Positions 17,255 through 32,142 of a DNA stretch of 35,439 nt are shown piece by piece. The notes beneath the pieces were generated by a model that was not told the DNA's origin, searched no databases, and saw only the letters and a program-made list of their open reading frames with translations. The first letter of the stretch is position 1, and every line of letters begins with the position of its first letter. A program made the position numbers and the translations under genes. Source of the DNA: an uncultured Planctomycetaceae bacterium (GTDB lineage: Bacteria > Planctomycetota > Planctomycetia > Planctomycetales > Planctomycetaceae); assembly GCA_903858815.1 (NCBI GenBank), contig CAIOKE010000277.1, positions 1 to 35,439 on the forward strand, in the 5' to 3' direction.

Positions 17255-18448
17255 TCAGGGATAGACTTCCAGTGCACTGGGTGCCGCTGCAAGGTCCCTT
17301 GTAAGCTGTGCGGTGTTGCAGCAGTCATTCAGTTTCGAGCCCTGCTGCAGCATTCTGAGCAATTGCCTGAGTGTGGCTTTCTCGCCGGCGTGGAAGCCAT
17401 CGATGGCTTCGTTGTCATCGGCTTCACAGTCGGCAAGTGCGGGGAAGCAGTGGAGTTCGTGTGGCGTGCCGCGGAACACGTCCTGCAGTGTGTCGGGCAA
17501 CACCTGCAGGTACTGATGTCGACCTGAATCCTGCAGTGCGGTGGCAACGGCATTGGCGAATGGGGGCAGGCAGGCCACAACGTGGATCTGCTGTTCTGAG
17601 CAGGTCTGCAGCAGGGCGCGGAGCTGTTCGACCGTGGCCGCATCCGGTGATTCGCCGAAGGCAAAGCGATCGCGACCGGTGGCCACTCGCTGCAGTGTGC
17701 TGGAAAACTGGAAATCGGGTGTTGCGGGATCCTGTGTGAGTCTCTGCTGAATCTGCCGACCGTAGGCGAATGAGCCGTCGGGGCGAAATCCTTTGGTGTT
17801 CTGCCACGCATTCAGTCCCCATGGCGCGTCATTTCGCTGTTGTGTGAGGCTGCTGACACTGATGCGGCCGCGGATGAGATCGAGCAGAACATCGGGCAGC
17901 AGTCGGAGTCCTGTCTGCAGGCTGAATGACGGGTTCTGTGTCCAGTGTGCAGGCGCTGTATCCATCGTCGACTGGCGCCAGTTGGAATTGAACATCCATT
18001 GATCGAGGGTGATCAGCAGAATTCGTGGTCGTTTTTCTGCAGGCAGTGTTGACAGAAATGTTCTGAAGTCGGCGACGGTGACGATGGTATATCCGGCATT
18101 CCAGAACGGGCAGTTGAACATTTCGCGGCGAAACTGGAGTACGCGTGATGATCCGAGTGCGAGGATCTGCAGTGGGGGCAGTTGCAGTATGGCCTGTCGT
18201 TTCATCCACGGATAATTCTGTTCGTTCCATGCGAATCCGATCAGGCCCTGCTGCTGCAGCAGCGATTGCTGAAGGACTGGTTCCAGGTCCCGAAAGGCTT
18301 CTCCGGAGAGTGCCAGGACTGCGACTGGCGGTGCAGTGATCAGCAGCAGTGGCAGGGCGAATAAGAGCAGTCGCAGCAGAAACAATCGCAGCTGGGTGCG
18401 ATTCTGTGCAGTGACAGTCCTGTGGAATTCCGGATCCGTATTGGCCAT
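17255..18448 (-). CDS. Membrane-anchored SGNH-hydrolase-like protein, partner of MBOAT
   Basis: 397 aa. One N-terminal transmembrane segment at about residues 20-48 (leucine-rich LRLLLFALPLLLIT). Block I of the SGNH fold appears as ILALGSSRVLQFR with the nucleophile Ser, and the C-terminal DGFH supplies the Asp-x-x-His pair of block V. Such proteins next to an MBOAT gene (AlgJ/AlgX, DltD and PatB style) complete transfer of acyl groups to extracytoplasmic glycans. The gene begins 9 nt after the MBOAT stop and is the last gene of the minus-strand operon. Overall similarity outside the catalytic blocks is not one I recognise, so the subfamily is open. Confidence 0.8.
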   Translation of the reverse strand: MANTDPEFHRTVTAQNRTQLRLFLLRLLLFALPLLLITAPPVAVLALSGEAFRDLEPVLQQSLLQQQGLIGFAWNEQNYPWMKRQAILQLPPLQILALGSSRVLQFRREMFNCPFWNAGYTIVTVADFRTFLSTLPAEKRPRILLITLDQWMFNSNWRQSTMDTAPAHWTQNPSFSLQTGLRLLPDVLLDLIRGRISVSSLTQQRNDAPWGLNAWQNTKGFRPDGSFAYGRQIQQRLTQDPATPDFQFSSTLQRVATGRDRFAFGESPDAATVEQLRALLQTCSEQQIHVVACLPPFANAVATALQDSGRHQYLQVLPDTLQDVFRGTPHELHCFPALADCEADDNEAIDGFHAGEKATLRQLLRMLQQGSKLNDCCNTAQLTRDLAAAPSALEVYP

Positions 18449-18457
18449 GGGTGTGGA

Positions 18458-19891
18458 TCAGAACTGGAAGTAGATAAAGTCCTGCTGTTCCCCGCTGTAT
18501 TTCAGCAGCAGGAACAGGACGGAGTAGCAGATGAGCCAGCGTGAGACGCGTGGCACATTTGAGCTGGAAAAGTCGAGTGCGTGTGTACGTCCGCGCTGTA
18601 TCCACTCTGTGACAAGGAACCCAGCGACGAGGGCCCAGACGTAGCCGGGAACGGGCAGAGGATGACCCTGCTGCAAAGTGAAAATTCTCTGCAGGATCTG
18701 TGTGGCCTGTGTCAGTGACGCTGCACGAAAGAAGGTCCACGAAAACATTGTGAGGAGGAAAGTGCAGAGGATCTGCAGAGCTTCGCGAGGTGCGGGCAGC
18801 AATGGGGCACAGGGGGGAACAGGGCTGAATCGACGATTATTTCCTGCAAGCTGCAGGGGCAGGAACCAGACGGCATTCAGCAGGCCCCAGGCGGGGAATG
18901 TCCAGTTGGCACCGTGCCACAGGCCGCTGACGAGGAAGACGATGGTGGTGTTGCGAATCATGAGTGGTCGGGAGACGCGACTGCCGCCCAATGGCAGGTA
19001 CAGGTAATCCCGAAACCACGTGGATAATGAGATATGCCAGCGTCGCCAGAATTCCGCAATGTCTCTGGAAAAGTACGGGAAAGCGAAGTTCTGCATCAGA
19101 GAGAAGCCGAACAGCCGGGCGACTCCTGTGGCGATATCTGAGTATCCGGAAAAGTCACAGTAGATCTGGATTGTGAACAGGAATACGCCGGCCAGCAGAG
19201 CTGTGGCTGAGGCGGCATCAGAGCTGCCGAAGGCCTGGTTGGCGAGGGCTGCACAGTTGTCTGCGATGACGACTTTTTTGAACAGGCCCCAGAGGGCCTG
19301 ACGGCAGCCATCAACAGCGGCCGGCATACTGAAGCGACGGCTGGTCAGAAACTGGGGCAGCAGGTGCCCTGCCCTTTCGATCGGCCCGGCAACCAGCTGC
19401 GGAAAGAATGTAATAAAGGCCAGCCACGCGATGAAGTTGCGAGTCGGCTGAAGCTGACCGCGATAGACATCAATTGAGGCACTGACAGTCTGGAATGTGT
19501 AGAAACTGATGCCCACGGGCAGTACGACATCGAGGCGAGCGAGGGCCGGGCTGAATCCGGCGAGTGTCAGGGCTTCATTAAGTGATGTGATGAAGAAGTT
19601 GCAGTACTTGAAGACGGCCAGAATTCCGAAATTGATGATCAGACTGCAGGCCAGCAGGGCTTTGCGAGCAGTGGGTTGGCGGGTGTTGTGGATGAGGTTG
19701 CTGACCGCGAAGTCGAGAGTGGCGGAAAACAGCATGAGTCCGAGAAAGCGGGGATCCCACCAGCCGTAGAAGACAAGGCTGCCGGCGAGCAGCAGCAGGT
19801 TCTGCAATTGCCATGAACTGCCGCAGGCGTACCAGCAGGCGAAGAACATGATGGGCAGGAAGATGGCAAATTCGAAGGAATTGAAGAGCAT
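18458..19891 (-). CDS. MBOAT family O-acyltransferase (AlgI-like)
   Basis: 477 aa polytopic membrane protein starting MLFNSFEFAIFLPIMF, the usual N-terminus of this family. The conserved signature FWRRWHISLSTWFRDYLY carries one essential His, and GLWHGANWTF the second. About ten or more hydrophobic segments are visible. AlgI-like MBOATs move acetyl or other acyl groups from the cytoplasm to a partner that modifies surface polysaccharide; the SGNH protein encoded 9 nt downstream is that partner. In this operon the target could be the legionaminic-acid-bearing glycan. The 63-bp spacer upstream contains six perfect copies of an 8-bp repeat and no clear Shine-Dalgarno box. Confidence 0.94.
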   Translation of the reverse strand: MLFNSFEFAIFLPIMFFACWYACGSSWQLQNLLLLAGSLVFYGWWDPRFLGLMLFSATLDFAVSNLIHNTRQPTARKALLACSLIINFGILAVFKYCNFFITSLNEALTLAGFSPALARLDVVLPVGISFYTFQTVSASIDVYRGQLQPTRNFIAWLAFITFFPQLVAGPIERAGHLLPQFLTSRRFSMPAAVDGCRQALWGLFKKVVIADNCAALANQAFGSSDAASATALLAGVFLFTIQIYCDFSGYSDIATGVARLFGFSLMQNFAFPYFSRDIAEFWRRWHISLSTWFRDYLYLPLGGSRVSRPLMIRNTTIVFLVSGLWHGANWTFPAWGLLNAVWFLPLQLAGNNRRFSPVPPCAPLLPAPREALQILCTFLLTMFSWTFFRAASLTQATQILQRIFTLQQGHPLPVPGYVWALVAGFLVTEWIQRGRTHALDFSSSNVPRVSRWLICYSVLFLLLKYSGEQQDFIYFQF

Positions 19892-19897
19892 CTCGGA

Positions 19898-19945
19898 GGG
19901 AGTGAGGGAGTGAGGGAGTGAGGGAGTGAGGGAGTGAGGGAGTGA
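19898..19945. repeat. Octanucleotide tandem repeat, (GGGAGTGA)x6
   Basis: Six perfect copies of GGGAGTGA (TCACTCCC on the coding strand of the flanking genes) fill most of the 63-bp gap between the stop at 19955 and the MBOAT ATG at 19891. The repeat ends about 7 nt from that ATG, so copy-number change would alter the leader length, not the reading frame. Confidence 0.95.
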
Positions 19946-19954
19946 GGTGGGGGG

Positions 19955-20986
19955 TCAGGCGGCGTGTGCGGTGGGGTCGGGTGGTGTATGGGTTTGTGGC
20001 AAGCCGTTGTGGGGTTGGGGCAGGATGACAGCGCCGGCGTGGCTGAAATCGGCGTATGTGGCGTCAAGTTCGCGGAGGTAGTCGGAGTTGGTGGTATTGG
20101 GCAGCAGTGGCCGGATATCGAAGCAGGTGACGGGTCGTCCGTAGATGGCTGGCAGACTGCGGGCAACGGAGGACATCCACGTGGCGAAGGCGATGGGCAG
20201 ATAGCCTTCACGGAGTCCGAAGAATTCGGCGAGGAACGGCAGTTTTTCTGCGCCTGCGGGTCCTTTCGTTTCGCGGGGGTGAAGGATCCAGCGACAGCGT
20301 GAGGCCTTGTGGTGCTGCAGGACGGCAGCAATGGTGGCGTCAATATCGATGTTCAGTCCGAGGTCGCGTTGCAGGGGCTGTGAGAAGAAGACGACTTCAT
20401 CGCGGACGGGCAGTTTTCCGGAGACCTGTGTTCTGAAGATGCGATAGTCGTTATGAATGATGGATTCGGTCGGTACATCGAGTGAGTAGCTGGTGAAGAA
20501 TCGCGCCCTGCTGAGATCGGGGAGGCTGGTATTCTGTCCGGGGATCAGTTGTTTGAGTCCGCGTCTGCGGGTGCCCTGAGTGCGCCATGCATTGACGGCA
20601 GTCTGGAGGACTCCGGCGCCGCCATCAAACACGATCAGCTGCTGATGTGGAATGGAGTGCAGCAGGTGTCGTTGCTGCGTCTGAAAGCCACCAGTGTAGA
20701 GGCACTGGCAGAGCCCGATCTGTTGTCTGAGTCGGTTGGCGGTGAAGGGGAACAGCAGCTGTGACAGGCGAGTGAGTTTCAGGTTCCAGGTGCGTGTCCA
20801 GCGTGAATCGATGGCGTCGTCTGCCAGTTCTGCCAGCCGGGTTTGTTTTTTTGCGGAGCGTGGGCTGTGGAAGACGACGAGAAAGTTGTCATCATCGGCA
20901 TGAAACCGATCGCGAGCTTCAGCGGCGTTGAGTACCTGCAGTGGCGTGCAGGCAAGGAACAGGTTGACGGGCCGTGATGGCTGCAT
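19955..20986 (-). CDS. Putative nonulosonic acid transferase (bacterial sialyltransferase-like, GT52-type motifs)
   Basis: 343 aa from the ATG at 20984-20986; a longer frame to 21229 overlaps the upstream GT9 gene and is rejected. The N-terminus NLFLACTPLQVLNAAEA resembles the opening strand of GT52 and polysialyltransferase proteins. Three motifs occur in the order known for bacterial sialyltransferases: a D/E-D/E-G-like element FDGG with Asp121, an HP element ILHPRE with His236-Pro237, and a Ser-Ser element WMSSVARS with Ser272-Ser273. Those families bind the CMP part of CMP-sialic acid with these residues. Because the same locus makes a CMP-nonulosonic acid, this is the best candidate for the transferase. 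The DGG rather than DDG form is unusual. Similarity is by motif only, so the family is tentative. Confidence 0.62.
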   Translation of the reverse strand: MQPSRPVNLFLACTPLQVLNAAEARDRFHADDDNFLVVFHSPRSAKKQTRLAELADDAIDSRWTRTWNLKLTRLSQLLFPFTANRLRQQIGLCQCLYTGGFQTQQRHLLHSIPHQQLIVFDGGAGVLQTAVNAWRTQGTRRRGLKQLIPGQNTSLPDLSRARFFTSYSLDVPTESIIHNDYRIFRTQVSGKLPVRDEVVFFSQPLQRDLGLNIDIDATIAAVLQHHKASRCRWILHPRETKGPAGAEKLPFLAEFFGLREGYLPIAFATWMSSVARSLPAIYGRPVTCFDIRPLLPNTTNSDYLRELDATYADFSHAGAVILPQPHNGLPQTHTPPDPTAHAA

Positions 20987-21011: not shown

Positions 21012-21989
21012 TCAGGCAGCAATTCGCTGGCTGTGGGCCGGATTGAGCATTTCGAGTGCTGCCTGCAGGACGGTGCTGACGGGCAGTCTGGTGAGATCAC
21101 CATCGGGAGCTTCGAGGAAGCGGTTTCGTGGTTCTTCGGGAGGAAAGGCGCCGAATCGATCGGGGCTGGTGGGTCCGAACAGTGCAAGTGTGGGTCGTCC
21201 GAGTGCGGCGGCCATATGCAGAGGGCCACTATCGTTGGCGATCACAAGGTCAGCGCGTCGCAGCAGTTCAATCAGCTGTGGCAGGGACGATCTGCGAGTG
21301 AGATTGACGAATCGATCCGGGTCGCGGAGTTCCGGTGAGTCCCACGGGAGGTGGCTATCCCAGACGACAGTGGAGTGTGGATCTGCCCTGAGCAGTTCAC
21401 AGGTGAGTTCGCGGAAGCCGCGCCATTCCTTATGAGCGCCGCGGCTGTTGGGAATCATTACGACGAGTCGAGGGCGCTGCAGTCGATGATCGAGAGTATC
21501 GGGCGAATCGCCATTCATGACGACGGGTGAGAACAGTCGAGGCTGCAGGCCGATCTGGGGCAGGAACTGCAGCAGTTTACGGACAGCGTGAGAGTTTTTT
21601 CCGGTGGGTGGCAATGGTGCGATGTGGCTGCAGGCGAGGCGACTGCCTTCGCGAGCATCGGCGATACCGACTTTGAGGGGGGCATTGGCGGCCCATGTCA
21701 TGAGGCCGGATCTGAGCAGTCCCTGAAAATCGAGCACAGCATCATAGTGTCGGGCTCGCAGCGTTTTCATGACGCGTGCGATGGCCAGCAGACCGCGCAG
21801 TCCAGGCGCGTGCTGGAATTCGATGATTTCGCCATTGACGGTCGGGCAGCGCCGAACGATGTCGGCGAAGCGGGACTTCACAACCCACGAAATCTGAGCG
21901 TCAGGCAGTTGATCCCGGATGGACTGAGCCACGGGGAGTGAGCAGATGATATCGCCGAGAGAGCTGGGTTTGATGATCAGCAGTCGCAT
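21012..21989 (-). CDS. Glycosyltransferase family 9 (heptosyltransferase-like)
   Basis: 325 aa from the ATG at 21987-21989, where the canonical GT9 N-terminus MRLLIIKPSSLGDII begins; the 18-residue upstream extension is rejected. GT-B fold signs: LGDIICSLPVAQSIR near the start, YDAVLDFQGLLRSGLM in the first lobe, and ANDSGPLHMAAALGRPTLALFGPTSP (donor-binding loop) in the second lobe. GT9 enzymes transfer heptose or related sugars from ADP-heptose to lipopolysaccharide core. No heptose biosynthesis gene is in the window, so the sugar is open. It sits 26 nt upstream of the candidate nonulosonate transferase. Confidence 0.92.
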   Translation of the reverse strand: MRLLIIKPSSLGDIICSLPVAQSIRDQLPDAQISWVVKSRFADIVRRCPTVNGEIIEFQHAPGLRGLLAIARVMKTLRARHYDAVLDFQGLLRSGLMTWAANAPLKVGIADAREGSRLACSHIAPLPPTGKNSHAVRKLLQFLPQIGLQPRLFSPVVMNGDSPDTLDHRLQRPRLVVMIPNSRGAHKEWRGFRELTCELLRADPHSTVVWDSHLPWDSPELRDPDRFVNLTRRSSLPQLIELLRRADLVIANDSGPLHMAAALGRPTLALFGPTSPDRFGAFPPEEPRNRFLEAPDGDLTRLPVSTVLQAALEMLNPAHSQRIAA

Positions 21990-22050: not shown

Positions 22051-22626
22051 TCAGGCTGCGCGACGCAGCTGTGGGTTCAGTTCCGTATCATTATACATTT
22101 TGAACTGGAAGTAGACACGGAAGCTGCGAGTCCCCTGCTGGACTTCGCTGAGCAGATCGGAGAGGGCCGAGGCCAGGTCCTGAATCTGGCGACAAATCAC
22201 ATTGAGCTTTGTGGTGCAGCGTTCGCGATGTTCAGGTGGAGCATCAAACCGCTGTGTTTCCTCGCGCATGTGATATTCCTTGAGGGCCAGAATGGACAGT
22301 CGATCGACCATCATGCCGGGCGTTTCGGAATTGAATGGACAGCCGGAATCGCGTGGCTGCAGCAGCTGCACAAGGTGTCTGTCGATCTGTTCGACAAGGT
22401 CATTACGTCGCTGATTGTGTCGGTCAATGGTCCGTTTGGCCTGACGGATCCTTTCAGGGCCAAGGTCATCGCGGCGAGCGATGTCTTCTTCGTGCCAGAG
22501 CGAGAAGTTTTCAAAGTGATTCTGTCGGACCAGTGCCAGCAGTCCGGCTTCTGTGGCTGCGGGCTGTGCCTGATGCCAGTCAGCGGTCCAGATGGCGTGA
22601 GCAGCGAGGATTTCCTGAACGTTCAT
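22051..22626 (-). CDS. DUF4254 domain protein
   Basis: 191 aa from the ATG at 22624-22626. The diagnostic block is NHFENFSLWHEEDIARRDD near residues 36-54, followed by IRQAKRTIDRHNQRRNDLVE (in two parts), the DUF4254 signature. The protein is all-helical, charged and lacks a signal peptide, so it is probably cytoplasmic. The family is found almost only in surface-polysaccharide loci but has no established activity. It lies between a capsule-type glycosyltransferase and a GT9 enzyme and may assist one of them. The frame remains open upstream to 22740, overlapping the previous gene; that part is not conserved-looking. Confidence 0.88.
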   Translation of the reverse strand: MNVQEILAAHAIWTADWHQAQPAATEAGLLALVRQNHFENFSLWHEEDIARRDDLGPERIRQAKRTIDRHNQRRNDLVEQIDRHLVQLLQPRDSGCPFNSETPGMMVDRLSILALKEYHMREETQRFDAPPEHRERCTTKLNVICRQIQDLASALSDLLSEVQQGTRSFRVYFQFKMYNDTELNPQLRRAA

Positions 22627-22700
22627 GACAGGTACCTGAAGACCGGGAGAAAGGGGGGGATCATGGAGTGACGGATGCAGGGACTGAGTCCTGAGACAAT

Positions 22701-24149
22701 TCAGGCGGATTTCCTTCTGCGGGCTCGATGTCCGGCCCACATTTTAATGACGTTGCAGATCAGGTCATCGGTTGTGCGTGCCAGTTGTCCCAGCCATGGC
22801 AGTCGGATGGTGAAGCCATTTTCGACCATGGTGCGACCGGTGTGACGTACGTATTTCAACTGGTCCTGGTCAAACATACGGAAGCAGGCATAGCGTGCGG
22901 CGTTGTCGCGGCAGCCCGGCTGCAGTTCTGTCCTGAGCAGTCTGACAAACTCATCGACTGTGGGTGGAGTGTAAGCGAACTTCAGATTGTCGAAGTAAGA
23001 AGGACCGAGTGTGATGACGGGTTTGCCGGCCCAGCAGGCTTCTACGGTGATGGTGGAGCCGAAGGTGACTACCACATCACTCCATTCCATAATGCTGTAG
23101 GAATTGACGGGTTCTTCGGCATAGTGGATGCGGACGTTGGGCAGTTCAGCCGTTTTTTTGAAGGGGGTCAGCAGATCGCCGGCCATATCAGCCTGATTGG
23201 GATGGAAGCGGACGACGAAGAACATGTCGGGGTTTTCGCGGCAGGCTCGTTCCACGATGGGACCGTAGTCCAGAAAGGGTGAGACCCAGTCCTTACCGAG
23301 CGAGGCGAATTCGTCCTGGCTGCTGAGAAAGATGCTGACTTTGCGAGTTCCGGGGGCGGTCTGTGGTGGGACGAATTCGGCGCCGTGTCGTTTGGCGTAT
23401 TTGTTGGTACGGGGTTTTCGATTGGCAGCAAACCAGCCTGCTGCGGCTTCGTAATCGGCAGGTTGCTGAAGGATGCGTTCCTGAATCCGCAGTCGATCAT
23501 GGACCATGTAACCCGGGCAGATGAAGGGGTGCTGTCGAGCACTGACTTCGAGGGTGGTGAAGTCGATACCGGCTGAACGTGCGGCGATGACAGCGAACTT
23601 CGAGCAACCGTGTCGGCCGTTGAAGACTTCGACTCGCTGAGGTTTCAGGTTCTGCACGACTGCCTTCATGGATTTCAGCAGGCGGGAGGAATTCGTGAAG
23701 TAGCGACGTTTGATGCCGCGGATCAGTGGTTCGCGGCGAGCGGTTTCCGGGAGGGTGCGGAACGTCGAGATGACTCCACTCTGCACGCCTTCCACGAGGG
23801 CACGCTGTTCGCTGAACGGCAAAGCTGGCTGCTGCTGATCGACGGATGCTGCAACAGACAGCGGGATAGTCTGTAAGCCCAGTCCGGCGGCCGTCTGGCA
23901 CACACGATTCCGGCAGATCAGGCAGGCGGCCGGATTTCCGGCATAGTTGGCGGCGCACGTACCGGCAGTCGCGTCGCAGTAAGTGACTGCAACCTGCTGT
24001 CCGTTGTCCTGCAGCTCGCGAGCCCGGGCCATGGTGACCAGCAGATGCTTCCGCCAGAGCGGATAGGCGGCGTGCACGAGGACCGGCCCGCTGCCGGAAG
24101 GCTCAGCGGGGGACGTCTGCGTGAACTTCAGTATGTGCTCGCCTTCCAT
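22701..24149 (-). CDS. Capsule-polysaccharide-type glycosyltransferase (GT-B fold)
   Basis: 482 aa. The first lobe carries a cysteine-containing stretch (AACLICRNRVC) and a glycan-locus type segment VEVFNGRHGCSKFAVIAARSAGI near residue 190. The second lobe has VVRFHPNQADMAGD, then MEWSDVVVTFGSTITVEACWAG, a nucleotide-sugar binding arrangement typical of capsule synthesis and polysaccharide transferases. No membrane segment is seen. An AGGAG box lies 7 nt before the ATG at 24149. It starts 38 nt after the amidotransferase gene, in the same operon. Donor and acceptor are unknown; it could also be the enzyme that uses an amidated sugar. Confidence 0.82.
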   Translation of the reverse strand: MEGEHILKFTQTSPAEPSGSGPVLVHAAYPLWRKHLLVTMARARELQDNGQQVAVTYCDATAGTCAANYAGNPAACLICRNRVCQTAAGLGLQTIPLSVAASVDQQQPALPFSEQRALVEGVQSGVISTFRTLPETARREPLIRGIKRRYFTNSSRLLKSMKAVVQNLKPQRVEVFNGRHGCSKFAVIAARSAGIDFTTLEVSARQHPFICPGYMVHDRLRIQERILQQPADYEAAAGWFAANRKPRTNKYAKRHGAEFVPPQTAPGTRKVSIFLSSQDEFASLGKDWVSPFLDYGPIVERACRENPDMFFVVRFHPNQADMAGDLLTPFKKTAELPNVRIHYAEEPVNSYSIMEWSDVVVTFGSTITVEACWAGKPVITLGPSYFDNLKFAYTPPTVDEFVRLLRTELQPGCRDNAARYACFRMFDQDQLKYVRHTGRTMVENGFTIRLPWLGQLARTTDDLICNVIKMWAGHRARRRKSA

Positions 24150-24187: not shown

Positions 24188-25459
24188 TCAGGCCGCCCGA
24201 GCTGGCGCGTCGGCGACGTGTGTGGTTGCCTGATCATCAGCGCCATTGCCACCAACTCGATGTCGCAGGTGCCAGCGTCCTGCGTCATCCTGTTTCCAGA
24301 GATGTGGAGAACGGAAGCGGTCTGTGATGGTGTGGAAGTGATCGGGCGACATGCCGATGTAATCCATGACTTCACGGAAGTAGCGGTCCGGGAATTCGCC
24401 ATCAAAGCGATTCACCAGAGCGACTGCTTCGTCGCGTGAAATGTGGCCATTGCGGATTTCCTGGGACGCATCGTAGGTCGCTCGGCCAATGCCGAACTTG
24501 ATCCACGTCGTGTAGTAATGCAGGTCATCGATTTTATCGTCGATGCTGTTGTACTTGCTGTAGGTGCCCTGCGTACGGAAGGGGCGAGCCTTGAAGCCAC
24601 AGTTCTCAACCGCGTAGTAGTAGACTTCCTGAGGTGTCCACTTCAGGTAATAACCAAGGTAGTGCACCTGGACGTCGATCTTCTGCAGCTCGGCTTCACG
24701 CGGGGGCAGGAAGCAGGCCAGATCGCCCTGCTTAACGCCATAACGCTCCGTCAATTCCCGCACAGAGACACCGGCCAGATACATGTCCTCCAGATTGTCA
24801 TAGGTGTGGAACGACTTGTCCCGCAGGCTGGATGTCGTGTCGGCAATCGGATTGCCGTACTCGGCCTCGTTCTCGCCGTAGAACACCAGCGGAATTCCCA
24901 GCTGAGCGGCCAGTCTGGGGCCAAGGTTCTTCTGGCCAAGGATGAATGTCTGGAAGGGATGGAACAGATTCTCAATGCTCAGGCGTGTCAACAGCTTCAT
25001 GACTCGCCCGTTGCGAGTGAACGACAGATTGTCGAAGCCGCCGACGTCGATCCAGTTCTTCCAGTTCTGATAGCCATAATCCGTGTACAGGATCGGAGGC
25101 CATGTGACGGTGAGTGGATTCATGCCGTATTTGTATTTCAGCACATGAGCCTGATAGGCGCTGTCCTTGCCACCACTGCCCGGCACAAGGCAGTCGTAGG
25201 AGCCATCCTTGCTGCGATACTGGCTCAGCAGCTCCAGCAACTGCTCTTCACGCGCCTGCCAGTCAATGGTCTGCTTCTGTTCGGCCACGCGACAGGCGTC
25301 ACAGATTCCTTCCGCATCGATGGCCAGCGTCTTCTTGCGAGATTCGATGGTGTGGCGAAATTCCACAGCGGATGCCGGACGCTGATTGGACATGACACAG
25401 CGTTTGCAGAAACGAACGTCTGCAGGCAGGCCGTAATACGCCGGAAGTTTCCCATCCAT
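24188..25459 (-). CDS. N-acetyl sugar amidotransferase (WbuX/PseA/WbpG family)
   Basis: 423 aa. It opens with a CxxC-type pair (FCKRCVMSNQRP) and a second pair (GICDACR), probably one metal site. The ATP PP-loop SGGKDSAYQAHVLK follows near residue 106, then YGENEAEYGNP, all family hallmarks. These enzymes use ammonia delivered by HisH/HisF-like partners and ATP to turn an N-acetyl group of a sugar into an acetamidino group (PseA for pseudaminic acid, WbpG for an amidino uronic acid, PtmG for legionaminic acid). The HisH-like gene lies 26 nt upstream. In this locus the likely substrate is legionaminic acid or one of its precursors, which is inference. It is not part of histidine or tRNA metabolism. 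Confidence 0.9.
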   Translation of the reverse strand: MDGKLPAYYGLPADVRFCKRCVMSNQRPASAVEFRHTIESRKKTLAIDAEGICDACRVAEQKQTIDWQAREEQLLELLSQYRSKDGSYDCLVPGSGGKDSAYQAHVLKYKYGMNPLTVTWPPILYTDYGYQNWKNWIDVGGFDNLSFTRNGRVMKLLTRLSIENLFHPFQTFILGQKNLGPRLAAQLGIPLVFYGENEAEYGNPIADTTSSLRDKSFHTYDNLEDMYLAGVSVRELTERYGVKQGDLACFLPPREAELQKIDVQVHYLGYYLKWTPQEVYYYAVENCGFKARPFRTQGTYSKYNSIDDKIDDLHYYTTWIKFGIGRATYDASQEIRNGHISRDEAVALVNRFDGEFPDRYFREVMDYIGMSPDHFHTITDRFRSPHLWKQDDAGRWHLRHRVGGNGADDQATTHVADAPARAA

Positions 25460-25485: not shown

Positions 25486-26157
25486 TTATTGTTGATGGGG
25501 CAGGTGTGTTGAAGACAGCCCGGTGGCCCAGTGTTTGAGGAAAGCAAGACCGTGGTGCGCACTGCGTTCAGGGTGAAACTGTACGCCCGTTACGTGCCCA
25601 CGGCGAATGGCAGAGCAATACCGAATACCTTCGTAATCTGTCAAGGTCAGCACATCACCGGCTTGTTCGGGGGTGGCTGCGAAGGAATGCACGAAATACA
25701 TCCATGTTCCATCGGGCAGACCGGAATTGAGGTCAGGCTGTGAGCGTTGTGGATTCAGGGAAATCCGATTCCAGCCGACGGCCGGGATTCGGCGAACGCT
25801 GCCATCGGGACGCAGCTCAGGCAGTTTTCGAACGATTCCGGGAATCAGTCCCAGTCCTTCGTGCAGACCGAATTCTTCGCTGGCATCGAGCAGCAGCTGC
25901 ATGCCGAGGCAGATCCCGAGGAGTGGCGTGCCGGCATGGACGGCCGTGAGCAGGGGTGTCAGCAATCCGCGTGAGCGGAGGGTGTCCATCGCATGTCCGA
26001 ATGCGCCGACACCTGGCAGGATGATGCCGGTTGCCTGCAGGAGTGAGTCGGGGCTACTGGTGATTTCCGCATCGATACCGCAGTGGCGGCAGGCGTGTCG
26101 GATGCTGAACAGGTTTCCGAGTCCGTAATCGACGATCAGAACGCGTGCCTGCGTCAT
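25486..26157 (-). CDS. hisH: HisH-like glutamine amidotransferase subunit (WbuY type) for sugar amidation
   Basis: 223 aa class I glutaminase. The nucleophile is Cys83 in GICLGMQLL; the His-Glu pair is in VQFHPERS at the C-terminus; the N-terminus VDYGLGNLFSIRHA and the PGVGAFG loop are HisH features. It releases ammonia from glutamine for the HisF-like partner. Its start overlaps the hisF-like stop by 4 nt (ATGA), indicating coupled synthesis. No other histidine gene is present, and a WbuX-type amidotransferase follows, so this is the surface-glycan paralogue rather than histidine biosynthesis. Confidence 0.9.
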   Translation of the reverse strand: MTQARVLIVDYGLGNLFSIRHACRHCGIDAEITSSPDSLLQATGIILPGVGAFGHAMDTLRSRGLLTPLLTAVHAGTPLLGICLGMQLLLDASEEFGLHEGLGLIPGIVRKLPELRPDGSVRRIPAVGWNRISLNPQRSQPDLNSGLPDGTWMYFVHSFAATPEQAGDVLTLTDYEGIRYCSAIRRGHVTGVQFHPERSAHHGLAFLKHWATGLSSTHLPHQQ

Positions 26158-27014
26158 GGTGTGTGCTCCATGCGACAGGTGGCTCCGGCCTGCAGCAGAC
26201 TGTGTTTCAGCTGCTGCATGGTGCAGGGCTGCACGTGAGAAACCGAGCGTCCGCTGTGGAGGAATTCGCGATTGCCTTCAGTGGTACCGTTGGCGCTGGT
26301 CTGGATGGATCGGATTGCTTCGTAGTGCAGCAGACTGCTGACAGCGACGGCACTGACGTGGCACTGCTGTACGACATCCACGACGTGCTGTGTTTTTCCG
26401 GGTCCGCCGTGAGCGATGACGGGAATGCGGACTGCAGCCGTCATTTTGCGGCAGAGCTCAAGGTCGAAGCCTTCTCCGGTGCCTTCGCGATCGATGGAAG
26501 TGGCAAGGATTTCACCGGCTCCCAGCTGTTCGGCCTGCGCTGCCCACTGCAGGGCATCGACGCCGGTATGTTCGCGTCCGTTATCCGTGAAGGCCAGCCA
26601 TGATCCATCGGGTTGTCGTCCGGCTTCGATGGCGACGACGATGGTGGAGGACCCGAAGCGGCGGGAGGCTTCGCGGATGAGGCCGGGGTCACTGATGGCG
26701 GCGGTATTGATCGCCACCTTGTCAGCTCCGGCCGCGAGCACAGCGCGAATATCTTCGAGTGATCTCAGTCCGCCTCCGACAGTGAGGGGGATAAAGACTT
26801 CGCGGGAGGTTCGGGAGATGATTTCGCAGAGGCTGTTGCGGCCGTAGAGACTGGCGACAGCATCCTGATAGATCAGTTCGTCGGCTCCGGCTTCGTAGTA
26901 GTGGCGAGCGAAGGCTTCGGGGTCCCCGAGGACACGAAGTCCTTCGAGGCGAATGCCTTTGACGAGACTGGGTCCTTTGATATCCAGTCGAGCGATGACA
27001 CGAACCATGGACAT
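26154..27014 (-). CDS. hisF: HisF-like cyclase subunit (WbuZ type) for sugar amidation
   Basis: 286 aa from ATG 27014 (ATG 27008 would give MVRVIARLDIKG and 284 aa); the frame stays open to 27467 but that part is non-coding. Eight-fold barrel features: IARLDIKGP with the first catalytic Asp, LIYQDAVASLYGRN, TVGGGLRSLEDI (phosphate binding), SIDREGTGEGFD, and IAHGGPGK. LDIKGP in place of HisF's LDVKDG and the DAVASLYGRN wording match the polysaccharide-locus subfamily. The second catalytic Asp of HisF (VVAID) reads VVAIEAGR here, Glu for Asp. A C-terminal extension of about 40 residues is longer than usual. First gene of the minus-strand operon; it probably channels ammonia to the WbuX-type enzyme. 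Confidence 0.88.
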   Translation of the reverse strand: MSMVRVIARLDIKGPSLVKGIRLEGLRVLGDPEAFARHYYEAGADELIYQDAVASLYGRNSLCEIISRTSREVFIPLTVGGGLRSLEDIRAVLAAGADKVAINTAAISDPGLIREASRRFGSSTIVVAIEAGRQPDGSWLAFTDNGREHTGVDALQWAAQAEQLGAGEILATSIDREGTGEGFDLELCRKMTAAVRIPVIAHGGPGKTQHVVDVVQQCHVSAVAVSSLLHYEAIRSIQTSANGTTEGNREFLHSGRSVSHVQPCTMQQLKHSLLQAGATCRMEHTP

Positions 27015-27352
27015 AAGTAATGGGCATCCATGCCGGGCGTTTGCGAGATCCTTCTGCGGTGTGGAGGATAGTGGAAGGGGAGTGGGCGAGTAAAGGCAGG
27101 AGGTGCTGCAGTGTGAGATCAGGTGGCGATTGATTTGCAAGGAAAATCGGCTCGTTTTTCTGCCCACCAGCGAGGTGGTGGCGTTTTTTGCGTTTTTTTC
27201 GTGTTTTTCGGGGGTTTCGGGAGTCTGGAAATCGCTGGACTTGACCGCTGTGGGGAGGGTGGAATATAAGCGGTGCGGGCAGGTCAGCTTGCAGGAAACA
27301 CGATGTTTCCACAGAGCGTGCTGGGGAATTGGCCGGACAGGGAGGCGGGTCA
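27015..27352. promoter_or_regulatory. Divergent control region between the two glycan operons, with phased T-tracts
   Basis: 338 bp without a gene. T-tracts at 27155-27159, 27184-27189, 27193-27199 and 27204-27208 stand out in GC-rich DNA; the last three are spaced by about one helical turn, which predicts a bend. They end 32 bp upstream of the plus-strand promoter at 27241. A 5-bp hairpin at 27164-27178 precedes the tracts. No clear minus-strand promoter was found; TTTACT and TATCCT with an 18-nt gap near 27068-27097 is the best weak candidate for the hisF side. Confidence 0.5.
27241..27270 (+). promoter_or_regulatory. Promoter of the legionaminic-acid operon (sigma70-like)
   Basis: TTGACC at 27241-27246 and TATAAG at 27265-27270, 18 nt apart, each one mismatch from consensus. 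The start would lie about 75 nt upstream of the first gene. It is the only good plus-strand pair in the divergent region. Confidence 0.55.
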
Positions 27353-28090
27353 GTGACACGGATACTGAGTTGCACGTTTGCGCGGGGTGGTTCGAAGGGC
27401 GTTCCGGGCAAGAACATCCGGATGCTGTGTGGTCGGCCGTTGATTGGGTGGGCGGTGCAGGCGGCACTGGGCAGTCGTTACATCTCGCGGCATCTTGTTT
27501 CCACGGACGATGAGTCGATTGCGGCGACGGCCTGTGCGTGGGGCGCAGAAGCTCCTTTTCGGCGTCCTGCCGAGCTGGCCACGGACACGGCTGCAGAGCG
27601 ACTGGCGTGGCGACATGCGATTACGACGATGGAGCAGCTGGAGCAGACGCGATATGACGTACTTGTCAGTGTCCCGGCGACATGTCCGTTGCGTGCCGCG
27701 GTGGATATTGATCAGTGTGTCGAACTGCTGTTGAATTCCGATGCCGACATTGTGGTGACGGCGACGGAGGCGGCGGCGAATCCGTACTTCAATATGATCA
27801 CGATGGATGCTGAGGGTGGTGCAAGGATTGCTGTGCAGCCTCCGGGGAATGTCGTACGACGCCAGGATGCTCCGGATGTTTTTGAGCTGACAGCCGTAGC
27901 GTATGCCGCTCGGCGGGACAGTGTGATGAATCTGGATTCGATCTTTGCGGGTCGCGTTCGGGCGGTTCTGGTACCGCGTGAGCGAGCGGTGGATATTGAT
28001 ACTCCGCTGGATTTCGACATGGCGGAATTTCTGATGCAGCGACGACTGAAATCCGAGGGTCAGCCGCAGATTCTGCGGCGGGCAGGCTGA
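27353..28090 (+). CDS. legF: CMP-nonulosonic acid synthetase (acylneuraminate cytidylyltransferase, LegF-like)
   Basis: 245 aa from GTG 27353, with a GGAGG box 7 nt upstream. The nucleotide-binding signature FARGGSKGVPGKNIR is at residues 8-22. Further landmarks: VSTDDESIAATA, the VSVPATCPLR segment that contacts the sugar, and ERAVDIDTPLDFDMAE at the end, where the Asp pair binds metal. It activates a nonulosonic acid with CTP to the CMP-sugar. The next genes encode NeuB- and NeuC-like enzymes, so legionaminic acid is a better guess than KDO. First gene of the operon, 55 nt before legI. Confidence 0.92.
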   Translation: MTRILSCTFARGGSKGVPGKNIRMLCGRPLIGWAVQAALGSRYISRHLVSTDDESIAATACAWGAEAPFRRPAELATDTAAERLAWRHAITTMEQLEQTRYDVLVSVPATCPLRAAVDIDQCVELLLNSDADIVVTATEAAANPYFNMITMDAEGGARIAVQPPGNVVRRQDAPDVFELTAVAYAARRDSVMNLDSIFAGRVRAVLVPRERAVDIDTPLDFDMAEFLMQRRLKSEGQPQILRRAG

Positions 28091-28145
28091 GTTCCGAGTG
28101 TTATGCCGTCAGCGGGCTGCTGGAACGGCAGAAGGAGAATGCGGA

Positions 28146-29207
28146 ATGGAGACGGCCCTGCAGACAGTGCTGGCTGGCGAGCGAGTGGTGGGAACCGGTC
28201 AGCCGTGTTTTGTGATTGCGGAAGTGGGAGTGAATCACAACGGCAGTCTGGACCTGGCGCTGCGTTCCATTGATGTCGCTGCGGACGCGGGCGCTGATGC
28301 GGTTAAGTTCCAGACATTTCGAGCCGAGAAGCTGGTGACTCATACTGCGCCAACTGCCCGATATCAGGCTGAGAATACGGGCAGGCAGCAGACTCAGTTT
28401 CAGATGCTGAAATCTCTGGAACTGAGTGAATCGGATCATCAGGTGATTGTGGAGCATTGTCGATCGCGGGGCATCCTGTTCATGTCGACACCGTTTGATG
28501 AGGACAGTGCGACGCTGCTGAATTCGCTGGGGATGACCATTTTCAAGGTGCCTTCCGGTGAGCTGACAAATCTGCCGTTGCTGCGGCAGATTGCAGGATT
28601 TGGTCGACCGCTGGTGATTTCGACGGGCATGAGTAATCTGGGTGACGTGGAAGCGGCGGTGGCGGCGGTGGAATCCGCGGGAAATCGGCAGATCATCCTG
28701 CTGCACTGTGTCAGCAATTATCCGGCAGCTGCGGCTGATGTGAATCTGCGAGCAATGCTCAGTATGCGTGCGGCGTTTGGTCTGCCGGTGGGTTATTCGG
28801 ACCATACACTGGGCATCGAAGTGTCTCTGGCGTCGGTGGCGCTGGGGGCCTGTGTGGTGGAGAAGCATTTTACTCTGGACCGTAATCTGCCGGGACCTGA
28901 TCATCGGGCATCGGCGGAACCTGAGGAGTTGCGGCGTCTGATTACGGGGATTCGAACAGTGGAGGCTGCGCTGGGTACGGGGCGGAAGGCACCGGTGGCG
29001 GCTGAGCTGGATACAGCGAAGGCAGCGCGCCGCAGTCTTGTGGCGGCTGCGGATCTGCCGGCGGGCACGATACTGACGGATGAATTGATCGCGATTCGGC
29101 GTCCGGGGACGGGACTGCCTCCAGCGATGAAGCCGTGGCTGATTTCGCGAACGCTGCGTGTGTCGCTGTCTGCCGGCGCGTTGCTGCGGCTGGAGGATGT
29201 CGGATGA
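28146..29207 (+). CDS. legI: N-acetylneuraminate/legionaminate synthase (NeuB/LegI family)
   Basis: 353 aa from the ATG at 28146, with AGGAG 8 nt upstream; the frame extends to 28098 without a domain. Barrel features: FVIAEVGVNHNGSLDLA, DAVKFQTFRAEKLVT, FMSTPFDEDSA, VPSGELTNLPLL, and EKHFTLDRNLPGPDHRAS split between metal- and PEP-binding residues. The C-terminal ~60 residues are the SAF (antifreeze-like) domain that covers the partner's active site. It condenses PEP with a 6-carbon 2,4-diacetamido sugar to a 9-carbon acid. The stop overlaps the next start (ATGA). Confidence 0.95.
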   Translation: METALQTVLAGERVVGTGQPCFVIAEVGVNHNGSLDLALRSIDVAADAGADAVKFQTFRAEKLVTHTAPTARYQAENTGRQQTQFQMLKSLELSESDHQVIVEHCRSRGILFMSTPFDEDSATLLNSLGMTIFKVPSGELTNLPLLRQIAGFGRPLVISTGMSNLGDVEAAVAAVESAGNRQIILLHCVSNYPAAAADVNLRAMLSMRAAFGLPVGYSDHTLGIEVSLASVALGACVVEKHFTLDRNLPGPDHRASAEPEELRRLITGIRTVEAALGTGRKAPVAAELDTAKAARRSLVAAADLPAGTILTDELIAIRRPGTGLPPAMKPWLISRTLRVSLSAGALLRLEDVG

Positions 29208-30391
29208 GGACCGTGTGTGTGGTCACGGTCGGGCGTTCAGACTGGGGCCTGTATCTGCCGATTCTGCAGTGTCTGCGGGCGGAACCCGGGATGCGGCTGC
29301 ATCTCGTGGCTGCCGGTGCTCATCTGGCTGCCGGTCATGGTCGTACGGATGCAGCAATTCTGCGCGACGGTTTTGAGATTCAGGATCGTGTTCCGATGCT
29401 GCTGGCGGCGGATGATGCGGTCAGTATTGCCATGTCGATGGGTCTGGGAACGATCGGTTTTGCGCAGGTTTATGAGCGAGTGCGACCGGATCTGCTGCTG
29501 GTGCTGGGTGATCGGTTTGAGATGCATGCTGCCGCGGCAGCTGCGGTGCCATTTCGCCTGCCGACGGCTCATGTCCATGGGGGTGAAGTGACGGCTGGGG
29601 CGATTGACGACTGTTTTCGGCATGCGATTACAAAGTATTCGCATCTGCATTTTGCGTCGACGGCTGAGCATGGTCGGCGGATCGTGCAACTGGGTGAGGA
29701 GCCGTGGCGAGTAACGATCAGTGGAGCGCCTGGTCTGGATCATGCGGGTCGGGTGCAGCTGCTGAGTCGTGACGAGTTGTCAGCTCGAGTGGGCCTGTCT
29801 CTGACGCAGTCTCCTGTGCTGGTGACGCAGCATCCCGTGACGCTGCAGTCGGAACGTGCTGGTGAGCAGACTGATGCACTGCTGCGGGCCCTGGATACGG
29901 TGGCGGGCCATCCGATTGTGATGACTCGCCCGAACGCTGATACTCGGAATACGGACATCCTCGAGCGTCTGGAGCGGTTTGCAGCCGACCGTCCGCACGT
30001 AAGGCTGGTAAGCAATCTGGGTACGCAGGCCTATTTCAGTCTGATGAGTCAGGCGGCGGTGATGGTGGGGAATTCGTCGAGTGGGATCATCGAGGCTGCG
30101 TCATTTCAATTGCCGGTCGTGAATATAGGGCTGCGTCAGGAGGGTCGTCCGCGTTCCGGGAATGTGGTGGACTGTGATGACAGCGCAGCGGGGATTGAGG
30201 CGGCTTTGAGGCGGGCGTTGTCGGTCGAGTTTCGCGAGTTCTGTCGTGGTGTGCGGAACATTTACGGGGATGGTGATGCGGCGGCGCGGATCGTGAAAGT
30301 GCTGCGGACGGTGGAATTGAGTGAGCGATTGCTGATCAAGCGATTTGTGGATTGCGAGGGGGGAATTCCGGAGCTTTCGAGTCCTTTTTGA
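29204..30391 (+). CDS. legG: UDP/GDP-sugar hydrolysing 2-epimerase (NeuC/LegG family)
   Basis: 395 aa from ATG 29204, which overlaps the legI stop by 4 nt and has GGAGG upstream. GT-B-like epimerase motifs: VTVGRSDWGLYLPI at the N-terminus, LVLGDRFEMHAAA near residue 99, HVHGGEVTAGAIDDCFRHA and ITKYSHLHFAS, and MVGNSSSGIIEAASF with LRQEGRPR in the C-lobe. It inverts C2 and releases the nucleotide, giving the free sugar that LegI uses. The GDP rather than UDP donor is suggested by the PtmE- and LegB-type genes in the operon, not by this sequence itself. Confidence 0.94.
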   Translation: MRTVCVVTVGRSDWGLYLPILQCLRAEPGMRLHLVAAGAHLAAGHGRTDAAILRDGFEIQDRVPMLLAADDAVSIAMSMGLGTIGFAQVYERVRPDLLLVLGDRFEMHAAAAAAVPFRLPTAHVHGGEVTAGAIDDCFRHAITKYSHLHFASTAEHGRRIVQLGEEPWRVTISGAPGLDHAGRVQLLSRDELSARVGLSLTQSPVLVTQHPVTLQSERAGEQTDALLRALDTVAGHPIVMTRPNADTRNTDILERLERFAADRPHVRLVSNLGTQAYFSLMSQAAVMVGNSSSGIIEAASFQLPVVNIGLRQEGRPRSGNVVDCDDSAAGIEAALRRALSVEFREFCRGVRNIYGDGDAAARIVKVLRTVELSERLLIKRFVDCEGGIPELSSPF

Positions 30392-30402: not shown

Positions 30403-31068
30403 GTGGGCGAGGTGGGGACGAACAGACTAATCCTGATTGGTGCTGGCGGGCATGCTCGAGTACTGGCCGATGCGTTGCATCTGGTGGGTCGTGCCGAGGG
30501 TGCGGTGGTGCTGGATGCTCAGGCTGACCTGCACGGGACGGCCCTGCTGGGTCTGCCGATCGTGGGTGGTGACGAGTTGCTGGCGAGTCTGCGTGGTGAG
30601 GGTTTTGGTGAGTTTCTGGTGGCAATTGGGGGGATTCGGGGGTTTGGGCTGCGTCGTCGTTTGTTTGATCGAGCGGTGCAGCTGGGATTGCGTGCAGCGA
30701 TATTGAGGCATCCGGCGAGTGTGGTGGCGGAATCGGCGGTTTTGGGTGCTGGCAGTCAGGTTCTGGCGAGTGCGGTGGTGAATGCGTGCGCGGAAATCGG
30801 GGAAAATGTGATTTTGAATACGGGTTCGATTGTGGAGCATGACTGTTGGGTGGGTGCGGACTCGCACATTGCCCCGCGGGCCTGTCTGGCGGGGGGTGTT
30901 CGGATTGGGCGGCAAGTCCATATTGGAGTTGGCGCAACAATCTGCGAGAATCTGCGTATCGGCGACCGGGCAATTGTGGGCGCCGGTGCTGTGGTCATCA
31001 GGGATGTACCGCCGGAGGCGGTGGTGGCGGGCGTGCCTGCCAAAGCGATACGGAGATCGGGTCCATGA
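30403..31068 (+). CDS. legH: PglD-like sugar O/N-acetyltransferase (LegH-like)
   Basis: 221 aa from GTG 30403 (GTG 30412 is also possible). An N-terminal Rossmann-like sugar-nucleotide part (LILIGAGGHARVLADA) is followed from about residue 110 by a left-handed beta-helix of hexapeptide repeats (VVAESAVLGAGSQV and onward, to VGAGAVVIRDV). EHDCWVGADSHIAP holds the catalytic His equivalent to that of PglD. It would acetylate the 4-amino group made by LegC. The C-terminus VPAKAIRR is typical of the family. The stop overlaps the next start (ATGA). Confidence 0.92.
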   Translation: MGEVGTNRLILIGAGGHARVLADALHLVGRAEGAVVLDAQADLHGTALLGLPIVGGDELLASLRGEGFGEFLVAIGGIRGFGLRRRLFDRAVQLGLRAAILRHPASVVAESAVLGAGSQVLASAVVNACAEIGENVILNTGSIVEHDCWVGADSHIAPRACLAGGVRIGRQVHIGVGATICENLRIGDRAIVGAGAVVIRDVPPEAVVAGVPAKAIRRSGP

Positions 31069-32142
31069 GTGGTCGGGAAGCCATCTCGATTCTTGAGCGG
31101 CTGTTGATTCATGCATCGGCCACGGTGCAGGATGCGATGGCGGCGATAGATGCGAATTCGCGCGGTGTGGTGCTGCTGGTTGATGAGCAGCACAGATTTC
31201 TGCGCACGATCACGGACGGCGATCTGCGTCGTGCCATTCTGAAGGGGCACGCGCTGGGTACGTCATTGAGTGTGGCGATTGATATTCAGGGAAAAAAATC
31301 CACGACAGCTCCGGTGGGTACGTCTCGCGAGGAGCAGTTGTCGATGATGGCGCGGGCACAGATTCGTCATCTGCCGCTGCTGAAGCCTGATGGAACAGTG
31401 GCCGAGTTGTCCTGTGCGGATCTGGTGCGTGAGGATGTGTTGCCGCTGCAGGCCGTGATCATGGCGGGCGGTTTTGGAACTCGACTGCGACCACTGACGG
31501 ACGATACTCCGAAGCCCATGCTGCCGGTGGGTGGACGTCCGCTGATGGAGCGTACGATCGAGGGTTTGCAGCGAGCCGGCATTTCACGAATCAACGTGAC
31601 GACGCACTACATGCCTGAGAAGATCATTCAGCACTTCGGAGGTGGTCAGAAATTCGGTGTGGATCTGAACTATGTGTCAGAAGATCAGCCGCTGGGGACT
31701 GCGGGAGCGCTGCGTCTGATCAGCGAGGTGGACGAGCCATTGCTGGTGATGAATGGGGGATATTCTGACGAACGTTGACTATCGGGCGATGCTGAAGTTT
31801 CATCGTGAAAACCGGGCACAGCTGACGGTGGCTCTGCGGCAGTATGAGATGCAGGTGCCGTATGGTGTCGTGGAAGCGACGGATGGACTGGTGAGTGAGC
31901 TGCGAGAGAAGCCGCGGATTACGTTCCTTGTGAATGCCGGGATTTATCTGCTGGAGCCGACGGTATTGAAGCAGATTCCGGATGCGGGGCGTTATGACAT
32001 GACGGACCTGATCAACCGGCTGCTGGCTCAGGGTGAGCGAGTGGTTGGATTCCCGGTGATGGAGTACTGGCTGGACATCGGTCGGCTGGATGATTTTCAG
32101 AAGGCACAGGAAGACGTGGAGCGAGTCAGGTGGGCAGCATGA
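31065..32142 (+). pseudogene. ptmE: CBS-domain sugar-phosphate nucleotidyltransferase (PtmE-like), frameshifted
   Basis: Start ATG 31065, overlapping the legH stop. Two CBS motifs cover about residues 1-120 (ITDGDLRRAIL; QIRHLPLL). The nucleotidyltransferase follows with MAGGFGTRLRPLT and TPKPMLPVGGRPLM, the glucose-1-phosphate nucleotidyltransferase signature. As read, the frame ends at 31778 after VMNGGYSDER, about 237 aa. Removing one G from the run at 31755-31759 restores VMNGDILTNVDY and a complete C-terminal half to 32142 (358 aa in total). In relatives this protein supplies GDP-GlcNAc to the legionaminic pathway. The break removes the catalytic NGD Asp. It is either a sequence error or a true loss of function; the gene's position in an otherwise intact operon favours an error. 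Confidence 0.9.

Follow-up and report, generated by a model that had tools for sequence, protein, structure and literature searches.

The described enzymes closest to the protein analysed here are the GT38 polysialyltransferase SiaD of Mannheimia haemolytica (PDB 5wc6/5wcn; Pfam PF07388) and the GT52 LOS sialyltransferase NST of Neisseria (2yk4/2yk5/2yk7). In PmST1 and MhPST the general base is proposed to be the second acid of a D-D-G or E-E-G motif, and enzymes mutated there are almost inactive (PMC2169525, PMC5517516), with a 20,000-fold loss in PmST1 D141A (PMC2169525) and a fall in kcat/Km from 117,488 to 0.01 in MhPST E153A (PMC5517516). The histidine of an HP motif and a Ser/Thr pair hold the phosphate in the same two enzymes (PMC2169525, PMC5517516). 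A (K/R)xHP motif is described as common to sialyl- and Kdo transferases and is reported for GT99 and GT107 (PMC12887879). CMP-ulosonate donors are also used by retaining transferases of the PF05159 type, including KpsC (GT107), WbbB (GT99) and KpsS1 (GT118), the last being the pseudaminic acid (Pse) transferase on which GT118 was founded (PMC12887879). For legionaminic acid (Leg), PMC6388019 describes predictions of transferases as unavailable and itself proposes TFUB4_00887; this protein and GtfS, both of Tannerella forsythia, are implicated there in the addition of Leg and Pse derivatives, respectively, within nonulosonate-bearing glycosylation clusters. GtfS and TFUB4_00887 are 445 and 442 aa long and are described with a TagB domain (PMC7439481), and Maf4 is named as a putative legionaminyl transferase in the title of a later paper (PMC9298399).

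The window, the whole stretch of DNA that was analysed, is 35,439 nucleotides of a contig from an uncultured Planctomycetaceae bacterium (Table 1). As originally predicted, the minus-strand operon containing the gene under study faces CMP-nonulosonate genes: a plus-strand cluster of legionaminic type in which NeuB and LegC score over their NCBIfam cut-offs and LegB falls just under, with the start of the gene under study ~6 kb from the point of divergence. No Kdo gene is identified among the operon and cluster genes scanned with Pfam and NCBIfam. The nucleotidyltransferase-like gene of the cluster is split into two overlapping plus-strand frames (30846–31778 and 31753–32142) that align one after the other along the same models, and a frameshift or an assembly error may account for the split. 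HisF2-like ORFs are also seen by eye in two other loci (L078 and L079).

Table 1. Features of the window (forward-strand coordinates).
Feature	Coordinates	Strand	Evidence and remarks
Conserved 397-aa partner gene after MBOAT	17255–18448	-	No family over cut-off; kept in both orthologous loci
MBOAT O-acyltransferase	18458–19891	-	PF03062 E 1.1e-25
Protein under study, predicted GT-B sialyltransferase-superfamily glycosyltransferase	19955–20986	-	343 aa; D121-G122-G123 loop, H236-P237, S272-S273
GT9 heptosyltransferase-family glycosyltransferase	21012–21989	-	PF01075 E 2.8e-30; ATG start as in orthologues
DUF4254 protein	22051–22740	-	PF14063 E 2.2e-52
PF05159 (KpsC/KpsS-like) glycosyltransferase	22701–24149	-	PF05159 28.1 bits, cut-off 20; RFHP motif R314-F-H316-P317
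WbuX-type N-acetyl sugar amidotransferase	24188–25459	-	TIGR03573 359.3 bits, cut-off 203.2
HisH-type glutamine amidotransferase	25486–26157	-	PF00117; TIGR01855 over cut-off
HisF2/WbuZ-type glycosyl amidation protein	26154–27014	-	TIGR03572 260.8 bits, under cut-off 299.7; start inferred from orthologue
CMP-nonulosonate cytidylyltransferase, NeuA/PseF-like	27329–28090	+	PF02348 E 7.3e-17; TIGR03584 PseF 139.7 bits, under cut-off 205.7
NeuB/LegI-type nonulosonate synthase	28098–29207	+	TIGR03569 444 bits, cut-off 399.65
NeuC/LegG-type UDP-GlcNAc 2-epimerase	29135–30391	+	TIGR03568 409.6 bits, cut-off 235.9
NeuD/PglD-type acetyltransferase	30403–31068	+	TIGR03570 217.5 bits, cut-off 160.8
LegB-type 4,6-dehydratase	32130–33122	+	TIGR04180 463.5 bits, just under cut-off 475
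LegC aminotransferase	33112–34305	+	TIGR04181 445.4 bits, cut-off 420; exact start unsure

The gene under study is an intact ORF, with an ATG at 20986 followed by a full reading frame and stop codon on the minus strand. Two genomes of the same genus contain orthologues with 77–78% identity and the same neighbouring genes, and the three sequences are referred to here as the window clade. The three pairwise dN/dS values of 0.18–0.23 indicate purifying selection, although they are higher than those of three neighbouring genes (0.03–0.12); with two orthologues, conserved neighbours and these dN/dS values, the gene is real. A perfect 8-bp tandem repeat, GAGGGAGT, is present in 6.5 copies at 19896–19947 between its stop codon and the MBOAT gene, and the length of this repeat could vary.

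The FDGG, HP and SS motifs are present in the order given in the original prediction (residues 120–123, 236–237 and 272–273). Motif order alone was ruled out as proof of family membership by a control in which the loose pattern D/E-(x)-G...HP...[ST][ST] matched 15.7% of 20,000 shuffles and 52 of the 232 ORF proteins of the examined loci, a set that includes family members. The tight spacing of the original prediction is rare (0.5% of shuffles and 4/232 proteins, three of the four being the 343-aa protein and its two orthologues). Because the loose pattern is so common the motifs by themselves are weak evidence, and it is on homology that the case for a predicted kinship with sialyltransferases rests.

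No Pfam or NCBIfam model scores over its cut-off against the 343-aa protein. Its only relevant Pfam match is to GT52 (PF07922; 14.5 bits, cut-off 26.1, E 0.022), and this weak match recurs in all three window-clade members (best E 0.022); PF07388 gives no match even at E≤10. As a single query against genome contigs the protein gives no match, while the three-row alignment of the window clade recovers both orthologues and a relative with 28% identity in a Marinobacter metagenome-assembled genome (MAG). Within the gammaproteobacterial family of Marinobacter, 32 of 163 genomes contain relatives at E≤1e-4; a sample of 398 genomes from its phylum yields three carriers, counting the Marinobacter MAG itself. 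The three-row profile finds this genome only among 392 genomes of the planctomycete's own phylum, and a 27-row profile finds only the three known window-clade genomes among 170 of the same family. The family was not found in viral contigs or PHROGs, nor in plasmids searched with the Marinobacter relative as query. A GT52 Pfam search over the same 170 genomes yields one sub-cut-off match (in G002); its misses mean little since the 343-aa protein itself is missed. Two further matches at E≤0.001 were dropped as chance, one (L004) lying in the frame of what we read as a regulator-like ORF and the other (L005) containing two stops. Among the titles listed in literature searches on planctomycetes with nonulosonic acids and Marinobacter with sialyltransferases, none concerns this family.

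The 35 remote relatives and the three window-clade sequences give an alignment of 38 rows. A profile of 30 relatives built without the window clade scores the window clade at ~90 bits, and HHalign of the window clade against all 35 gives E 4e-24. PF07388 is matched at E≤1 by 22 of 27 family members (best 8.5e-8) and GT52 by 18 of the 27 (best 3.8e-5). Seven relatives were also scored singly: three pass the PF07388 cut-off of 23.3 (L043, 23.9; L014, 26.0; L036, 32.5), one (L055) has a GT52 match under cut-off, and L044, L010 and L054 have no sialyltransferase match in Pfam, L044 and L010 including a pse-linked member. None of five relatives scored with NCBIfam has a match. The distant GT52/GT38-type kinship that had been proposed is upheld by these profile scores together with the fold comparison below. 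The accompanying proposal of a new subfamily agrees with the failure of the 343-aa protein to pass any Pfam or NCBIfam model, although some relatives do fall under PF07388. The window clade branches on a long stem (4.04 changes per column, support 100/100), and its place among the other long branches is unsure.

An AlphaFold model built from a four-row alignment has two domains, with a mean pLDDT of 61.5 and a pTM of 0.52; confidence is concentrated in the C-terminal domain, and residues 121–182, from the DGG loop on, have pLDDT <50. A single-sequence model (pLDDT 37.3) was set aside. Five sialyltransferase entries top the Foldseek comparison with the PDB: GT38 polysialyltransferase 5wc6/5wcn (E 1.1e-7 and 1.3e-7) and then GT52 NST 2yk7/2yk4/2yk5 (E 2.0e-7 to 6.0e-7), followed by UDP-GlcNAc 2-epimerases (4.5e-6) and the Kdo transferase WaaA (5.8e-4). 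TM-scores are ≤0.50, so the overall placement of the domains is unsure, and with a moderate model and low pLDDT at 121–182 the fold match may therefore rest mainly on the C-terminal domain. In a viral fold search, 11 of the 50 matches listed are named glycosyltransferases, none of them a sialyltransferase. The predicted fold is thus GT-B, as the original prediction required, and closest to the solved sialyltransferases, on a moderate model that is weakest from the DGG loop onwards and needs confirming.

A profile search of the PDB likewise ranks SiaD first, at only E 0.1, and the EEG, HP and ST motif columns correspond in the resulting alignment. Unlike SiaD, with which it shares 14–15% identity in the fold alignment, the 343-aa protein has DGG in place of EEG, no Lys or Arg before HP and no PF07388 match. 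The same two motif differences separate it from NST, to which the TM-score is ~0.3. Compared with the PF05159-type enzymes, a member-like protein of which is encoded in the same operon, it has no PF05159 match and its fold search places sialyltransferases first.

Five positions (D121, G123, H236, E254 and S272) are identical in all 38 aligned rows, and position 273 is kept as Ser or Thr. S272-S273 aligns with S-[ST] in 35/35 relatives, and a weak profile alignment pairs this family column with the MhPST ST. The 343-aa protein has the HP and the Ser/Thr pair of known sialyltransferases and lacks both D/E-D/E-G and the basic residue of (K/R)xHP, which is I234 here and is Arg in one of the 35 relatives. 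All 35 remote relatives have D-D-G and H-R where the window clade has D-G-G and H-P, with three MAFFT modes in agreement. The unusual DGG loop that had attracted attention is therefore more telling than was appreciated, and the general-base position is Gly in most alignments. The loop is covered by 101 of 105 pairwise alignments; the second acid is matched by G122 in 86 of them, by D121 in 12 and by neither in three. A BLAST alignment with one relative (L008) that also puts D121 at the second acid was passed over in favour of the majority register, and this other register is possible. On the majority register, the phosphate site of the window clade is intact and its base site altered. The alignment suggests a divergent subfamily with DDG...HR-x-E...S[ST]A as its signature.

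The explanation we favour, and hold to be somewhat better supported than not, is that the 343-aa protein is an accessory CMP-ulosonate transferase, probably with a legionaminic-type donor, from a divergent lineage within the sialyltransferase GT-B superfamily (GT52/GT38/GT80-like). Its donor would be a CMP-activated ulosonate, here probably a legionaminic-type sugar, possibly amidinated, made by the neighbouring genes, and its acceptor a surface glycan assembled in part by the operon's GT9 and PF05159-type enzymes. By analogy with PmST1 and MhPST, H236 together with S272/S273 would hold the phosphate of the leaving CMP, and D121 (in a D-G-G loop that is D-D-G in relatives) would need to act as the general base of a presumably inverting reaction, or stand in for it.

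The main competitor for this role lies in the same operon. The PF05159-type protein (KpsC/KpsS/GT118-like, perhaps retaining) both passes the PF05159 cut-off and contains the (K/R)xHP motif, and could be the nonulosonate transferase of the locus, with the 343-aa protein transferring something else or modifying the glycan in another way; we regard this as a serious possibility, though not a probable one. The PF05159-type protein is found in 10 of 170 same-family genomes (E≤1e-20), compared with 3/170 for the 343-aa protein. Seven of the ten lie outside the window clade, and four of these (G101, G018, G099 and G100) encode it in a region with nonulosonate genes but lack the 343-aa protein; in G099 and G100 the gene adjoins one of NeuB/PseI type. 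R-F-H-P is invariant in 8/8 aligned members. Against this, the remaining three of those seven (G121, G124 and G125) have the gene with DUF4254 and GT9 genes and no nonulosonate genes within the stretch examined around it (<9 kb for two of them), and its PF05159-type kinship is by domain, the best match of its profile in the PDB being KpsC 6mgd at E 0.0068. The family of the 343-aa protein adjoins neu and pse genes elsewhere, and a single glycan could receive ulosonates from both enzymes. The NF046086 model of the BFO_1060 domain, BFO_1060 being, at a guess, the orthologue of the Leg transferase under a name that none of the papers listed uses, matches the PF05159-type protein far under its cut-off of 200 (45.7 bits, E 4.6e-12) and not the 343-aa protein, which differs in this from the T. 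forsythia enzymes. The presence of the 343-aa protein in only 3/170 genomes makes it accessory and its neighbour the better candidate for core transferase. The original prediction that the 343-aa protein is the nonulosonate transferase of the locus is weakened accordingly: the core enzyme is more likely the PF05159-type neighbour, and the 343-aa protein is probably a second, optional nonulosonate-attaching enzyme. Its proposed specificity for legionaminic acid likewise overreached.

Several further features of the PF05159-type proteins were observed. Four Cys near the N terminus (58, 65, 76 and 79) are invariant in 8/8 rows and perhaps form a metal site. One relative (L079:8573-10009) scores just under the PF05159 cut-off (19.4 against 20), and the nonulosonate cluster of G018 also encodes a 777-aa protein with PF05159 and sulfotransferase domains (L079:10346-12676). 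The pse-like operon of G669 ends in another PF05159-type gene (L044:15081-16625), so that a gene of this type and one of the family under study occur together near nonulosonate genes there too; its product and the PF05159-type protein of the window are only weakly alike.

The genomic context of the remote relatives bears on the donor. In the family of Marinobacter, NeuB is present in 29/32 genomes that carry a relative compared with 57/131 that do not (Fisher p 8e-7, uncorrected for phylogeny), the carriers lacking it being G609, G633 and G670. In three carriers a family gene neighbours neu or pse genes: it adjoins neuA-neuB-neuC in G555, is convergent with a pse-like operon in G669 (operon names assigned partly by eye), and is a contig-edge fragment convergent with a NeuB/PseI gene in G534. 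The 29/32 co-occurrence and these three arrangements support a CMP-nonulosonate donor for the family. In 26 of the 29 genomes with both, the family copy is on another contig or >1 Mb from NeuB, and the five of these that were opened (G676, G588, G622, G610 and G637) show LPS-core-like clusters by eye.

Such surroundings fit a protein that transfers Kdo (from CMP-Kdo) or another CMP-ulosonate, rather than a nonulosonate, to an outer-membrane glycolipid core. Most of the opened regions of relatives (ten, plus that of L008) look LPS-core-like, with KdtA-, acyltransferase- and heptosyltransferase-like genes recognised by eye. Two KdsB proteins score over cut-off in the planctomycete genome (G000), making CMP-Kdo also available, a finding that does not settle the donor of the 343-aa protein. 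In G633, one of the carriers without NeuB, the family gene has an HMGL-like aldolase and a further cytidylyltransferase nearby. This reading is nevertheless unlikely, given the NeuB co-occurrence and the nonulosonate pathway and amidation genes within and opposite the operon of the window. The aldolase and cytidylyltransferase pair of G633, with a pair of similar appearance seen by eye in G637 (L051:12542-14882; L052:4599-6939), is possibly another route to CMP-ulosonates.

It is quite unlikely that the window clade has lost transferase chemistry and acts as a binding or scaffold pseudoenzyme for other transferases, as Gly in place of the Asp of 35/35 relatives, the severity of general-base mutations in MhPST and PmST1 and the raised dN/dS might suggest, since D121, H236, P237, E239, E254, S272 and S273 are invariant across the clade, P237 matches the classic HP where 35/35 relatives have Arg, and 12/101 alignments place D121 as the base.

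An accessory CMP-ulosonate transferase, the reading preferred here, also admits a bolder form, which we think rather unlikely. The window clade would be an active CMP-nonulosonate transferase with a moved general base, in which the acid of DDG has become Gly with D121 or another residue acting instead, and the Arg after His has become Pro; with its relatives it would form a new glycosyltransferase family using Leg, Pse or related CMP-ulosonates and including the Leg transferases that have been sought. A clade that has Gly where the general base is expected, yet retains the remaining motif residues, would probe the rigidity of the sialyltransferase mechanism. Little is known about the enzymes that transfer legionaminic acid, and this locus and its relatives offer two candidate families in one operon.
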